DNA from: an uncultured Gammaproteobacteria bacterium | GTDB taxonomy: Bacteria; Pseudomonadota; Gammaproteobacteria; JAADHQ01 | Reading direction: 5' to 3' | Assembly: GCA_947258755.1 (NCBI GenBank) | Contig: CAMYJO010000003.1 | Span: forward strand, 1-50,870 | Length of the DNA: 50,870 bases | In this document: one piece after another, positions 11,746 to 17,507 of the stretch | Position numbering within the stretch: the first letter of the stretch is position 1 | Layout: each line of letters opens with the position of its first letter | The notes under the pieces: model-generated | What the model was told of the DNA's origin: nothing | Databases searched by the model: none | What the model saw: the letters and a program-made list of their open reading frames with translations, nothing else | Translations under genes and position numbers: made by a program

Positions 11746-12369
11746 TTATTTTTTATCTTTCTTGGATTTACCAGATTTTTTCTTTTTACTATCCTTTTTC
11801 GACTTATCTTTTTTTGACTTTTTCTTCTTACTATCTTTTTTAGATTTCTTGGCCTTTTTCTCTTTACTGTCTTTGTCTGATTTCTTGCTCTTCTTTTTAG
11901 TGTCCTTTTTCTTGGACTTTTTCGATTTTTCCTTTTTTACTTTACCTTGTTTTTCTTTCGAGGTTTTCTCTGACTTCTTGCTCTTTTTACTGGCCTTGTC
12001 TTTTTTTCTGTCTACAGGCGAAGTCTTGTTTTCATCGTTCAGCGCCGAGCGCTCACTGCTTCTGGCCGTAGCCCTGGTCAGACCCTTTGTTGTTGACAGG
12101 TTGTTCCTGTTGCGCTTATACAGCTCTTCACCAATACCGGGTACATTTTGTAACTCTTTCGCGCTTTTAAATGCACCATGTTTTTTTCGATAATCAACAA
12201 TGGCCTTGGCCTTTACCGGACCAATGCCAGATAAATTCTGTTGCAGTGCCTCGGTATTGGCCTTGTTAATATTGACCGTTTCCGCCAGTACATTCAACGG
12301 TGAAAAATTAACGATCAACATCAGGATAAGAATGAGGGAGGAAGGAATGCTTTTATAATGTAAATTCAT
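11746..12369 (-). CDS. secreted ComEA-like helix-hairpin-helix protein with lysine-rich tail
   Basis: 207 residues. The ATG at 12369 (GGAG nine bases upstream) begins a signal peptide ending near VLAETVN. A ComEA-type DNA-binding region follows with two helix-hairpin-helix motifs (LSGIGPVKAKAIVDYRKKHG and LQNVPGIGEELYKRN, about residues 45-90). After a short linker, roughly the last 85 residues are almost only lysine, serine and aspartate/glutamate, in repeats such as SKKSKK and KKDSKKKK. ComEA proteins bind incoming DNA in the periplasm during transformation, usually without such a tail. The tail recalls histone H1-like proteins and should add strong nonspecific nucleic-acid or peptidoglycan affinity. 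A longer ATG at 12384 is less likely because it would contain the ribosome-binding site. Confidence 0.82.
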   Translation of the reverse strand: MNLHYKSIPSSLILILMLIVNFSPLNVLAETVNINKANTEALQQNLSGIGPVKAKAIVDYRKKHGAFKSAKELQNVPGIGEELYKRNRNNLSTTKGLTRATARSSERSALNDENKTSPVDRKKDKASKKSKKSEKTSKEKQGKVKKEKSKKSKKKDTKKKSKKSDKDSKEKKAKKSKKDSKKKKSKKDKSKKDSKKKKSGKSKKDKK

Positions 12370-12673
12370 CTGAACACGCTCCATTTTATTACCGTAAACA
12401 GCCTTTGGCTATCGTAAGTGTCAGCGCATTATAGATATAACCGACTACACAGGCTATAAAGCAGGCATAGAATTCACATGCATTTTACAATTCATTTAGA
12501 GCAAATATAAGCTGAGTGGTAGCCGTACAAGGATTAAGACTTGTTTACAAATAAGACAGTAACTACCTGATAAAGTAATGGAGAGGGTTTTTCATCACGC
12601 GCAAGGAAACCAGGGCACAACAAGCTTCACATATAACAACGCGGCCGCCTTATGATGGCTCTTCTGCTCGCCG
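12370..12673. other. intergenic region without a clear gene
   Basis: About 300 bases upstream of the ComEA-like gene and downstream of the protease gene start region. On the minus strand TATAAT (12433-12428) may be the -10 of the ComEA-like gene, without a good -35. A 25-codon open frame at 12578-12655 lacks a ribosome-binding site. Nothing else is recognisable. Confidence 0.4.
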
Positions 12674-14277: not shown

Positions 14278-15441
14278 TTAGTTAGCCAATTTAACACCTA
14301 AAGAACTCAGTGTTTCCATGGTCAGTCCACCTGTGCTCAGCCCCTTGGCACGTTGGTAGGCCTTAGTTGCTGACAGGGTCTGTGAACCGATAACGCCATC
14401 CAGAGGGCCTGGGTTATAACCGGCAGCCTTCAGGGATTTCTGTACACGCAGTCCAACCTGTTGATTCATGTTGGTCTTACACAGAACCGGTGCCCATTGC
14501 ATCTTCTCATCAGAGACCTTGATGCGCTTGGTGATAGTCGTGTATTCAGCCTTGACTGGAATAGCAGTAGTCTTGGCAGGTTCTACCAGTTTGCGAGCCT
14601 TGATGGTTTTGTACTCAGCCGGTACAGGAATAGATCGAGTAGTCGCAGGTGTTTTCACGACACGTTTCTTGACTGTTTTATACTGAGCAGGAATTGTGAT
14701 GGTCTTGGTAGTAGCCTTGTTGACCAGAACGCGCTTGGCAACAGTCTTATAGGTTGCAGGCACGGTAACCAGACACATGATGTCGCCCGTAGCTGAATCG
14801 ATCTTGGTAATAGGGCCAGAACCTTTCTTCCACACGGTATGCTCAGGCTTATCAAGGATCTTCTCATATTCAGTCTTGTAAACAGGTGCTATAGCTTCGA
14901 TACGCTCACTGGCAGGAGACACCAGCACTTTTTCGGTAACCCAAGCATAAGTGGCAGGAACAACCTGGATACGCTCAGATGCTTCCTTGACCAAGACACG
15001 CTCAGTCCCCATTTCATAACGTGCAGGGATGACTTGTAAACGCTCGGAAGCGTCCTTTTTCAGTACGGTCATTGTTTCTGTCTTGTATTTTGCTGGAGAG
15101 AATACGCGTGCATAACATTCACCGGCCTTGGCATTAGGTGGCAACAATTCGGAACCAATGCCTGTAGGGGCGCTGGATTGATGTGATGCAGCCATTGACA
15201 TGGACTCACGCTCCTGCTCAAGACGGCTGCGCGCAGCCCTTTCTTCCTGCAAGCTTGATTCCAGAGAAGAGATCTTCTGATCTCGCTCACCAATCAGCAT
15301 GTCGGTCTTGGCAGCCGTACTAGTGGTTGCGCTGGTACTGGCCGTCTTGTTCTGTTGCATAGTACTACAGCCACTCATGACCAATGCTGATATCATTACT
15401 GGCAGGGCCAGCTTTTTAACAGTAAATAGATTGTTTTTCAT
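14278..15441 (-). CDS. lipoprotein with eight ~23-residue repeats and a C-terminal peptidoglycan-binding domain
   Basis: 387 residues from the ATG at 15441, which is preceded by AGGTGAG. A lipoprotein signal with lipobox VMSGC is followed by a serine/threonine-rich and coiled segment (residues ~30-90). Then come about eight tandem units of the form PAxYKTVxKRVLVxxAxxxxIxV (for example PAQYKTVKKRVVKTPATTR and PATYKTVAKRVLVNKATTK). A short insert with a cysteine (DIMCLV) interrupts units 4 and 5. The C-terminal 65 residues form a PG_binding_1 domain (LRVQKSLKAAGYNPGPLDG). The likely role is outer-membrane-to-murein tethering. The repeats probably form a beta-rich rod; their function is unknown. 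It is monocistronic, with its own terminator. Confidence 0.85.
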   Translation of the reverse strand: MKNNLFTVKKLALPVMISALVMSGCSTMQQNKTASTSATTSTAAKTDMLIGERDQKISSLESSLQEERAARSRLEQERESMSMAASHQSSAPTGIGSELLPPNAKAGECYARVFSPAKYKTETMTVLKKDASERLQVIPARYEMGTERVLVKEASERIQVVPATYAWVTEKVLVSPASERIEAIAPVYKTEYEKILDKPEHTVWKKGSGPITKIDSATGDIMCLVTVPATYKTVAKRVLVNKATTKTITIPAQYKTVKKRVVKTPATTRSIPVPAEYKTIKARKLVEPAKTTAIPVKAEYTTITKRIKVSDEKMQWAPVLCKTNMNQQVGLRVQKSLKAAGYNPGPLDGVIGSQTLSATKAYQRAKGLSTGGLTMETLSSLGVKLAN

Positions 15442-15510: not shown

Positions 15511-16296
15511 CTACTTTGTTGCTGATACCATGTATGCGACGGCCGCCTTAACTTCGTCATCTGACAGTGCCGCAAAACCGCCCTTCGCAGGCATATAGCC
15601 CTTAGAACCCTGGTAACCCTTGACCGCATGGTCAACCATTACATCCATACCTTGTGCCTTACGCTCACCCCAGCTGCTATCGTCCAGCTTTGGTGCACCT
15701 GCAGCACCCGAGGCATGACAGACAGTGCACTTGCTGGAATAGACCGCCTTGCCGGCTTCCAGATCCACCGCTGGTGCCTCGGCGCTCGTGCTAGCCGCAC
15801 CTGTTACGGCTGCACCAGCAGATGAATCAGCCAGCATACTTCCGGCTTTTTCCTTTACTGTGTCTACCGCTGAGGTTGATCCCGCAGGGGCAGTTTCAGG
15901 GACTACGCTTTCAGGCGTTGTAGTTGGCATCATATCTGCGGCTTTTTCTTTCACAGTATCGACGGCATCTGATACACCTTCTTTTGCTTTTTCAACCACG
16001 CCTTCTGTTGTTTCTTCAACTTTCTCCATAACCGTGGTGCTGCCTTTCTTAACGAAAGACGATGCTTCCTCGGCTGCAGACTTGGCTTTTTCGGTACCTT
16101 CTTCAATAAGCTCTTTACCCTCTTCCATGACATTTTCAGCTGTCTTGGCCGTGCTGTCTTTCATCTCAGTAACGACATTGGAAGCCTTATCAACCATCGA
16201 CTCAGCCGCACTCTTCGCCGCATCATCGTCAGACTTACTACATGCAGCAGACAGGACGGCAATCATGCTTAAGGATAAAATCATATTCGTTTTCAT
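15511..16296 (-). CDS. c5-type cytochrome c lipoprotein with long amphipathic-repeat spacer
   Basis: 261 residues from the ATG at 16296 (GGAGAG upstream). The N-terminus is a lipoprotein signal ending LSAAC. Residues ~25-170 are a charged, alanine-rich helical region in near-11-residue periods (AKSAAEEASSFVKKG, and AVDTVKEKA twice), like LEA or apolipoprotein repeats. The last 85 residues are a class I cytochrome c with heme motif CTVCH, the family's KLDDSSWGER segment and an axial methionine in GYMPAKGG. The domain resembles cytochrome c5. It should be an envelope-anchored, one-heme electron carrier held away from the membrane by the spacer. No oxidase or reductase genes are adjacent, so its redox partner is unknown. 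Confidence 0.87.
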   Translation of the reverse strand: MKTNMILSLSMIAVLSAACSKSDDDAAKSAAESMVDKASNVVTEMKDSTAKTAENVMEEGKELIEEGTEKAKSAAEEASSFVKKGSTTVMEKVEETTEGVVEKAKEGVSDAVDTVKEKAADMMPTTTPESVVPETAPAGSTSAVDTVKEKAGSMLADSSAGAAVTGAASTSAEAPAVDLEAGKAVYSSKCTVCHASGAAGAPKLDDSSWGERKAQGMDVMVDHAVKGYQGSKGYMPAKGGFAALSDDEVKAAVAYMVSATK

Positions 16297-16437
16297 TTTT
16301 AACTCTCCGATTAGCTTTTTATAGTTTAATACCAACTATCAATTCGGCAGCGCCCATAATAGTCAGCTTAATTCTTAATTATAGCTGATTTACATCAATC
16401 TTTAATAAATACTGCAACAAAACTGAATACTCTGTAA

Positions 16438-16848
16438 CTAATAACTCACCTTCGGATCCAGACTCTTGGCCTGCTCTACCCAGGACTGAATACTTTTCAG
16501 GCTCGGAGTCTGCCTAACCAATTTCTTTGCAGCATTAATTTCCTTGACCTTATCTGCGAGGTTTTCCGCATTTCGATTTCTCAGTTCCTTGACGGTATCT
16601 ACACCGGCCGCTTCCAGTAATTCCGAATACTGGGTAGAAATACCCGAGATACGACAAAGATCACACAGGTTTACCCATTTAAGGATTCGCGAATCGTCGA
16701 TACCCGTTTTCTCTGCCAGCGTCTTACGCCCTTTCGTAGTACAACCCTGGTCAAGTAATTTATTAGGATTGCTTATGCCCTGGTTACGCAATAATTCGCC
16801 AAACTTGGGACCAATACCTTCAATATCTTCTATTTTCATTGACATCAT
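16438..16848 (-). CDS. DUF4332 helix-hairpin-helix protein
   Basis: 136 residues, with no signal peptide. The N-terminal IEDIEGIGPKFGELLRNQGI is a helix-hairpin-helix of the DUF4332 type. The motif recurs as CRISGISTQYSELLEAAGVDTVKELRNR, giving two tandem pairs. DUF4332 proteins are small and of unknown function; the motif suggests DNA or protein binding. Three nearby ATG codons (16848, 16845, 16839) follow a GGAGAA; 16845 has the best spacing. Cysteines cluster in LCDLC. The gene lies between two envelope-type genes on the same strand but is not tightly linked to either. Confidence 0.8.
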   Translation of the reverse strand: MMSMKIEDIEGIGPKFGELLRNQGISNPNKLLDQGCTTKGRKTLAEKTGIDDSRILKWVNLCDLCRISGISTQYSELLEAAGVDTVKELRNRNAENLADKVKEINAAKKLVRQTPSLKSIQSWVEQAKSLDPKVSY

Positions 16849-16915: not shown

Positions 16916-17239
16916 TTAGAAATGCTTATAGCCACTCAACACCTCACCCATCCTATTACCGCCAAGTTGGCTGAATATGTTGGGCAAAAGATAATTCATA
17001 CCACTTTGAATCAACTTATTATCTACACCTACTGTAAAAGCGATAGCAGCCAAATCCATGCTATCGAGAATCGTATTGGCGTCTGTAATACCGTCATTCT
17101 TATCAAATACGGCAATAATCTTGCTACTAGCCTCGGGCAGGAACCTTTGCGCCTGTTCCTCGCTAAAACCCCGGCCGATCAGTCCTGAGATCAATAGCCC
17201 AGCTGTTTTGTCACCAATAATCGATTGTACTGAATTCAT
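16916..17239 (-). CDS. unknown 107-residue protein
   Basis: From the ATG at 17239, with AGGAG seven bases upstream, the protein has 107 residues; the longer in-frame extension to 17383 lacks a ribosome-binding site and looks non-coding. It is helical and glycine/leucine-rich (TAGLLISGLIGRGFSEEQAQ, NYLLPNIFSQLGGNRMGEVL) with no cysteines or clear membrane helix. A DFxKNDG-like acidic turn (FDKNDGITD) resembles a calcium-binding loop, though it is not a full EF-hand. I do not recognise a family. It is divergent from yjgR. Confidence 0.6.
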   Translation of the reverse strand: MNSVQSIIGDKTAGLLISGLIGRGFSEEQAQRFLPEASSKIIAVFDKNDGITDANTILDSMDLAAIAFTVGVDNKLIQSGMNYLLPNIFSQLGGNRMGEVLSGYKHF

Positions 17240-17507
17240 CCAACATCTCCTGCCAGCCTTAAATCCTGTCCGTGCAGCTGTCTGTCTGTACATTTGATGA
17301 GTATTGTAGGCCTGTCGGTGATGAAAACAATGCTCAACACAAACATTTAACAATTTTTTTATAACTGTTAATATTTGTAACATTTACGTCATTCCAGAAT
17401 GAATGCTTAACTACATCAATTACAATAATTATCTGTATAGTAGGGTAAAATTGGCACCAGGAACCAGGCCCATCAGACCATACCTACCGACCCATAGGAG
17501 TAAAGAC

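Follow-up and report, generated by a model that had tools for sequence, protein, structure and literature searches.

A c5/c555-type monoheme cytochrome on a predicted LEA-like helical stalk in an uncultured gammaproteobacterium

Electrons are usually taken to cross the periplasm on freely diffusing small cytochromes or along multiheme chains. Long N-terminal tethers towards the peptidoglycan or the inner membrane are found in outer-membrane lipoproteins such as LpoB and Pal, and Group 3 LEA proteins and the A1/A4/E apolipoproteins are characterized by an 11-residue amphipathic helical repeat. In the Neisseria cytochromes c5 (CycB) and tri-heme CcoP, a c5-type heme domain is carried on a low-complexity linker (Ala/Ser/Pro-rich, 34-42 residues long, located between heme domains and bearing glycan sites), which, as the authors raised as a possibility, might bridge the periplasmic gap to an outer-membrane-linked enzyme (PMC2924362). 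A functional link to the cbb3 oxidase is reported for Shewanella ScyA, which is described as soluble and as an unlikely direct donor (PMC4335978). A large monoheme c552 was rejected as a close match to the protein described here, as its disordered tails are His-rich and only 21-23 residues long, and the protein was purified from the periplasm (PMC9456337). The lipid-modified azurin (Laz) of Neisseria is presented as an outer-membrane-bound redox protein and a partner of an outer-membrane-attached peroxidase (PMC10452240). On that account, Laz resembles our protein in being a small redox protein placed at the outer membrane, and differs from it in being a copper protein. We know of no hendecad helix in Laz.

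The cytochrome gene considered here lies in a window (the whole stretch of DNA that was analysed, 50,870 nucleotides) of an uncultured gammaproteobacterium, and its features are collected in Table 1. The reading frame opens with ATG, and the protein contains, in this order, a signal peptide, an Ala/Lys/Glu-rich segment, a linker and one heme domain. A preliminary description of this DNA had recognized a stalked, probably lipid-anchored c5-like cytochrome with one heme, and we confirm it: the ORF is in place, the heme domain matches PF13442 (E 7.5e-14, 52.2 bits, cut-off 27) and PF00034 (E 3e-10, 41.7 bits, cut-off 21.3), and CTVCH occurs once. The stalk, given there as about 145 residues, does include a long Ala/Lys/Glu-rich segment; its length needs correction, the distance from Cys19 to the heme domain being about 157 residues. 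An ORF on the opposite (+) strand (15749-16324), facing the stalk, was judged to be a mirror of the biased codons and not a gene.

Table 1. Positions in the window of the cytochrome gene, its parts and its immediate neighbours.
Feature	Position	Strand	Basis
Stalked c5-type cytochrome, probable lipoprotein; CDS including stop, 261 aa	15511..16296	-	reading frame; domain and structure-relative searches
Signal peptide and putative lipidated Cys, residues 1-19, VLSAA/C-S	16240..16296	-	sequence reading
Predicted continuous helix, residues 24-121, hendecad (11/3) periodicity	15934..16227	-	model; periodicity
Pro/Ser/Thr/Ala-rich linker, residues 122-176, with second AVDTVKEKA copy (143-151)	15769..15933	-	model; repeat test
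c5/c555-type monoheme domain, residues 177-261, CTVCH at 190-194	15514..15768	-	profile matches
DUF4332 (helix-hairpin-helix) protein, upstream	16438..16848	-	PF14229 E 5.9e-40; neighbour in G003 and G265 too
Lipoprotein with C-terminal peptidoglycan-binding domain, 69 bp downstream	14278..15441	-	PF01471 E 2.4e-8; neighbour in G003, three genes off in G265

The best solved relative of the heme domain is cytochrome c-555 (4j20, E 5.6e-23), followed by c551, cA, c-556, ScyA (1kx2) and c5; the solved chains of 4j20 and ScyA (closest and fifth-closest) are 81-88 residues long and have no stalk. The distal heme Met is probably the one within YMPAKGG, a motif that, together with CTVCH and the Pfam matches above cut-off, places the domain in the class I c5/c555 type. 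Classical c5 is marked by an extra Cys pair near the C-terminal helix; this pair (GTCxxCS) was seen in three of the relatives (L026, L065 and L066) and is absent from the window cytochrome, which is therefore c5-like in the c555 sense and not a classical c5.

Outside the heme motif the only cysteine is Cys19 (the complete set being 19, 190 and 193), and both this residue and the SKSDD that follows it align in the orthologue from genome G003, of the same genus. The strict lipobox is [LVI][ASTVI][GAS]C, and a looser PROSITE-type pattern exists. The window protein (LSAA/C, with Ser at -3) and the G003 orthologue (LTIA/C, with Thr at -3) match the looser pattern and not the strict form, and the Pfam scan of the window cytochrome listed no lipid-attachment-site model. 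Lipidation at this N-terminal Cys is a likely inference. The +2 residue is Ser in both proteins and Asp in the homologue from G302; according to the E. coli sorting rule, Asp at +2 keeps a lipoprotein in the inner membrane, and Ser at this position makes anchoring of the window cytochrome in the outer membrane probable.

The preliminary description had proposed a prediction of the helix length, and single-sequence AlphaFold2 gave one helix of 98 residues at 24-121 (10-residue block means 68-91), with low confidence from residue 126 on, in a model with a mean pLDDT of 54.9 and a pTM of 0.27 (38.7-46.0 mean pLDDT in the other four models) whose heme domain has no confident fold. For residues 20-125, hydrophobicity has its spectral maximum at 97.5 degrees (period 3.69), with a power of 12.5 against a shuffle mean of 2.9, and over the window protein and the G003 orthologue the peak falls at 97.5-98 degrees (period 3.67-3.69), with 0 of 1000 shuffles as strong for either. 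Such a peak corresponds to an 11/3 hendecad, and a heptad (7/2) coiled coil was ruled out, the peak not being near 103 degrees. Positions 1, 4, 5 and 8 of the 11-mer (a/d/e/h spacing) are mostly Ala, Val and Met, and on an 11-position wheel Lys falls between 50 and 140 degrees except for 2 of 15 residues, which lie farther out, and Glu, for 17 of 18 residues, beyond 100 degrees. The helix contains no Pro and has a net charge of -11; only one of its 84 18-residue windows passes a lipid-binding discrimination score, which together with the charge argues against a helix lying flat on an anionic membrane, an arrangement that we rejected. The duplicated AVDTVKEKA pointed out previously is indeed an exact 9-residue repeat (starting at residues 111 and 143), longer than any repeat in 2000 shuffles of residues 20-176, where the longest was 8. 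The Ala/Lys/Glu-rich segment is no ordinary low-complexity linker.

The earlier wording "LEA/apolipoprotein-like" is appropriate for the pattern, since the stalk shows the 11/3 amphipathic periodicity and shares with Group 3 LEA proteins and apolipoproteins the 11-residue repeat with Lys towards the interface and Glu/Asp on the polar face. It is not appropriate for the family profile: PF01442 reaches only 15.5 bits where 90 are needed, no LEA model was listed in the Pfam scan, and the best PF01442 score among nine scanned relatives was 28.4 bits (G077). The window stalk also differs from those proteins in being exported and fused to a heme domain. Similarly, "flexible" describes the second part of the stalk, the linker, whereas the long part is predicted to be helical. 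In the hyperosmotic wild-type E. coli cells measured, the distance from the outer membrane was 9.7-10.8 nm to the peptidoglycan and 30-32 nm to the inner membrane (PMC8824477). Compared with these values, the helix, if extended, would measure 14.7 nm (98 residues at 0.15 nm) and the linker, with its 55 residues, could add at most 19.8 nm, so that reaching the cell wall or spanning the periplasm, as had been imagined, is geometrically possible.

In relation to the Neisseria linker (PMC2924362), the window protein has its 98-residue hendecad helix after a lipoprotein-type N-terminus; only its 122-176 linker resembles the Ala/Ser/Pro-rich type. Gammaproteobacterial anchored c5 proteins, such as L003 from the same genome, belong to the same class I heme family and have a linker before the heme, but the N-terminus of L003 reads as a transmembrane anchor, with no lipobox and, by eye, no LEA-type helix. 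LpoB- and Pal-type lipoproteins share the long N-terminal tether and lack the redox domain. The Ag473 family lipoprotein (NF047840) has a similarly charged, repetitive body without a heme domain, and matches residues 10-122 of the window protein weakly (E 1e-4, 23.1 bits, far below the cut-off of 100). The NCBIfam model NF052675 ("XAC1346 family secretion chaperone") matches weakly over signal peptide and stalk in G012 (L117:1501-2118, E 1.3e-5) and, at E 0.02, in the window protein, both far below cut-off.

The order is represented by four genomes (G000, the present one, to G003), all from one genus. G003 contains a full-length orthologue of the cytochrome (63% identity) in the gene order of the window, namely DUF4332 protein, cytochrome, peptidoglycan-binding lipoprotein, Sel1/trypsin protein and helix-hairpin-helix protein (named by likeness to the scanned window genes). 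G001 (95% complete) and G002 (79%) yielded no full-length orthologue, only other c-type matches (best E 4.3e-11 and 8.4e-8, respectively), no match at E 0.001 to the peptidoglycan-binding lipoprotein and none to DUF4332; the three genes co-occur, all of them being in G000 and G003 and none being found in G001 or G002. Between G000 and G003, pN/pS is 0.125/0.659 in the heme domain (85 codons, 79% identity), 0.189/0.74 = 0.26 in the helix (90 codons) and 0.352/0.773 = 0.46 in the linker (55 codons), values of which only the order is safe, synonymous sites being near saturation; the linker has diverged most and the heme domain least, with the helix in between. Among the non-overlapping reading frames of at least 90 aa in the window, a search restricted to c-type heme motifs found no CXXCH besides that of the cytochrome, which supports, rather than proves, the earlier remark that no redox operon is nearby.

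Parts of this neighbourhood recur in family f153. In G265, the peptidoglycan-binding lipoprotein, MscL, DUF4332 and a lipoprotein-like c5 stand in a row, followed, as in the window, by a CHASE2 kinase and a LysM/FecR protein (domains confirmed in both genomes); the stalk of this c5 is not hendecad, 455 of 1000 shuffles being as strong in a first run and 298 of 1000 in a second. G360, from another genus, has two copies of a neighbourhood with HerA, DUF4332, the peptidoglycan-binding lipoprotein and MscL (HerA, DUF4332 and MscL confirmed by domain scan in one copy), each with a heme-less LEA-like lipoprotein beside MscL (L103:6385-6810 and L104:7676-8104), and the one that was tested peaks at 98 degrees with 0 of 1000 shuffles as strong. 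Taken with the window, these loci show the lipoprotein of this gene setting as LEA alone, as LEA plus heme and as another stalk plus heme. The peptidoglycan-binding lipoprotein itself was matched in 77 of the 369 genomes of the class sample (some in several copies, some through the short C-terminal domain alone), and in 30 of its loci, read with flanks of up to 1.5 kb, a c5 adjoins only in the present genome, G003 and G265, with another CXXCH frame in G077; so wide a spread with so few c5 neighbours argues against tight linkage.

The cytochrome was matched in 277 of the 369 class genomes, where most of the matches listed span the heme domain and little before it; 30 loci from this search and 30 regions picked mostly for long query coverage were then read (L021, L033 and L040 for their heme domains only; L058 was left out). 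By reading, many of these relatives combine a transmembrane anchor with an Ala/Pro-rich linker tens of residues long, and some are lipoprotein-like, contrary to the preliminary view of c5 cytochromes as mostly soluble or short-anchored. A scan of named genomes for homologues of the whole protein gave one locus (L013), whose relative has a signal peptide and no stalk. The architecture of the window protein, which had been recommended for searching elsewhere, is not unique. LEA-type stalks occur on c5 domains in G000 and G003 (f1), G077 and G204 (f75), and G302 and G068 (f66), on c553-like domains in G012 and G274 (f10), and on a c551-like domain in G207 (f81), that is, in at least nine genomes and five families of the class sample and on three heme-domain types; the c553- and c551-like labels are by resemblance, Pfam giving PF00034 at E 1.2e-10 to 1.4e-9. 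In all nine of these heme-protein stalks the maximum lies at 97-98.5 degrees and none of 1000 shuffles equals it, and nine heme-less LEA-like lipoproteins are also periodic (eight with 0 and one with 1 of 1000 shuffles), although, as the LEA-like stalks were chosen by eye, the test speaks for periodicity and not for frequency. In the control stalks of G311, G342, G076, G334 and G265, 492, 609, 678, 52 and 298 of 1000 shuffles were as strong, respectively; G334 came nearest (peak at 98.5; 107 of 1000 in an earlier run). A search with the stalk only matched 15 of the 369 class genomes, with a heme in the frame in six (G000, G003, G204, G012, G274 and G207) and none in the other nine; this search is insensitive, since it missed the stalked c5 of G077 and returned in G068 and G302, each of which has a stalked c5 too, the heme-less relatives. 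At the phylum level, 9 of 398 genomes were matched, and of the frames inspected at these matches none but the present cytochrome had a heme.

Heme-domain trees, built on about 85 columns, have few firm forks. The first (36 rows, 33 of 50 loci, with 17 loci absent, including L015 and L029 from G077 and G204) forces at its starred branches at least two changes of the LEA-stalk label, and the second (54 rows, 48 of 51 loci; L002, L008 and L061 absent) forces one, which suggests that LEA stalks may have arisen independently within c5. The present cytochrome groups with those of G334 and G265 at a support of 93/93 in the first tree and 88/43 in the second.

Two of the stalked proteins, from a single genus of f10, belong to a denitrification setting: the stalked c553 gene of G012 (L125:7795-8475) and G274 (L114/L126) is located between nor genes and nirJ, beside nirS and nirN/nirF-like genes. 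In the G012 cluster, NirS (with a cytochrome domain) matches PF02239 at E 1.2e-122, the NorB frame PF00115 at E 2e-57, the NorC frame PF00034 at E 2.9e-9, and NirJ is above cut-off for TIGR04051; the names NorB, NorC, NirN and NirF rest on likeness and gene position (PF00115 cannot separate NorB from an oxidase), and the G274 cluster is described from reading only. The f10 relatives of this c553 are unstalked signal-peptide proteins (L132, L135 and L136) and, in G369 (L133), a protein with a lipobox and a shorter stalk, the simplest story being that a soluble carrier may have become a leashed one. In G077 (f75), a rubrerythrin gene (NF045767, above cut-off) lies just upstream of the stalked c5.

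As to possible partners, PF00115 is found at three places in the present genome and there is no further COX1-type gene, hence no NorB. An aa3-type oxidase (subunit I, TIGR02891, beside CoxB, TIGR02866, both above cut-off) has a CoxB that reads as carrying CXXCH and is for this reason called caa3-like, and there are two CcoN-CcoO pairs (TIGR00780 and TIGR00781, all above cut-off). Besides L003, the genome has two further monoheme matches (L002 and L004).

We favour, with a probability of about 0.5, a reading in which the window protein is a tethered periplasmic electron carrier, probably anchored in the outer membrane, with a helix and linker that reach partners at the inner membrane. The N-terminal Cys would be lipidated and, having Ser at +2, would end up on the outer membrane's inner face; a single long amphipathic LEA-type helix (residues 24-121) would stand off the membrane and pass the peptidoglycan, alone or in a right-handed hendecad bundle; the disordered linker would let the heme domain swing; and the partners with which the heme would swap electrons would sit at or close to the inner membrane, most probably on the route to either cbb3 oxidase or to the caa3-like enzyme. 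In favour of this reading are the periodicity, significant in 9 of 9 LEA-type heme stalks and in 0 of 5 controls, the predicted single helix, the order of constraint between the two species, the like stalks on c553-like domains in a denitrification cluster and on a c551-like domain, the unstalked f10 relatives and the oxidases of the genome. The architecture, helix prediction, periodicity, conservation and recurrence are what the analysis shows; lipidation, outer-membrane location, extended geometry, carrier role and partners are inferred. Several observations count against it. In the window the cytochrome has no c-type redox gene as a neighbour, L003 could serve the oxidases, and the single-sequence model has low overall confidence. 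Sorting to the outer membrane is weakened by the loose lipobox, by the E. coli origin of the rule and by the Asp at +2 in G302. Since G334 and G265 carry related heme domains on stalks whose hendecad periodicity is not significant, the group as a whole can do without this exact helix.

The same evidence bears on three other explanations. The LEA-like lipoprotein could be the working part, a desiccation-type helix acting in envelope or osmotic stress (self-associating or lying on a surface), with the heme as an added sensor or passenger. The heme-less lipoproteins in both copies of the G360 neighbourhood fit this idea, as do the 9 of 15 stalk-matched genomes without a heme in the frame (G068 and G302 among them) and the position of MscL, adjacent in G265, near in G360 and 12 kb from the cytochrome gene in the window. 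A passenger would, however, be expected to drift, whereas conservation is highest in the heme domain (pN 0.125), with CXXCH and MPAKGG kept; moreover, the G012 and G274 proteins sit among denitrification genes, and the stalk search of the present genome found no separate LEA-like lipoprotein (next match E 0.34), so that we regard this explanation as unlikely. We hold it equally unlikely that the stalk is a mere spacer, for which any low-complexity sequence of the same length would do. Pro/Ala linkers in other c5 proteins, the Pro/Ala- or Thr-rich stalks of the lipoprotein-like c5 of G311, G342 and G076, and the G334 and G265 stalks speak for such a spacer, while an 11/3 signal far above shuffles in every LEA-type heme stalk and a lower pN/pS in the helix than in the linker speak against it. 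More improbable still is a stalk serving as an oligomerisation device, in which a right-handed hendecad coiled coil would cluster the hemes, for example in an electron relay or in a wall-bound array with the neighbouring peptidoglycan-binding lipoprotein: the Ala, Val and Met at the a/d/e/h-spaced positions, with Lys and Glu outside, and the joint presence of the three neighbouring genes within the genus would suit it, but an Ala-rich core is weak, and G265 has the same neighbours with a non-hendecad stalk.

More tentatively than the tethered-carrier reading itself, hendecad-stalked lipo-cytochromes might constitute a recurrent, independently assembled class of carriers, LEA-type lipoproteins having been fused several times to c5, c553-like and c551-like hemes as periplasm-spanning arms past the peptidoglycan, for aerobic respiration here and for nitrite/nitric oxide respiration in another family. 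What seems new is the LEA-type hendecad helix as an arm, on a lipoprotein and in several cytochrome types; a full-text literature search, with subscription papers mostly outside its coverage, showed among the papers listed none on a cytochrome with a LEA-type stalk. If a single heme were carried on a long helical arm, electrons would have one more way to cross the periplasm (some tens of nm) and the peptidoglycan, and the LEA-type helix would gain a role beyond stress protection. Arm length has reportedly been altered experimentally for Lpp, and in denitrification clusters the stalked cytochrome gene is one to look at.

Some minor observations were made along the way. In G076 (L060, 974-2344, an open frame of 457 residues), a c5 heme domain ends a very long Thr/Ala-rich, lipoprotein-like stalk, and in G207 (L121/L124) a Pro-rich stretch precedes the hendecad stalk with the c551-like heme, among neighbours that by reading are not obviously redox genes. 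The peptidoglycan-binding lipoprotein of the window has repeated VPAxYKTV-type units before its C-terminal domain, and a Sel1/trypsin-like frame (by resemblance) adjoins this lipoprotein in the present genome, G003, L078, L081 and L083. The gene at 11746-12384 encodes an exported helix-hairpin-helix protein (PF12836) with a C-terminal tail of mostly Lys and Ser; a terminator-like hairpin lies just 3' of it, at 11731-11706, in a promoter and terminator scan whose counts were no higher than chance. Finally, between the DUF4332 gene and HerA there is a 155-residue ORF (16916-17383) without a Pfam or NCBIfam match at E 1, for which a shorter start near 17233 is likely, as the 108-residue frame of G003 (L109) begins there, with VMDILQSILGDKAGEM.
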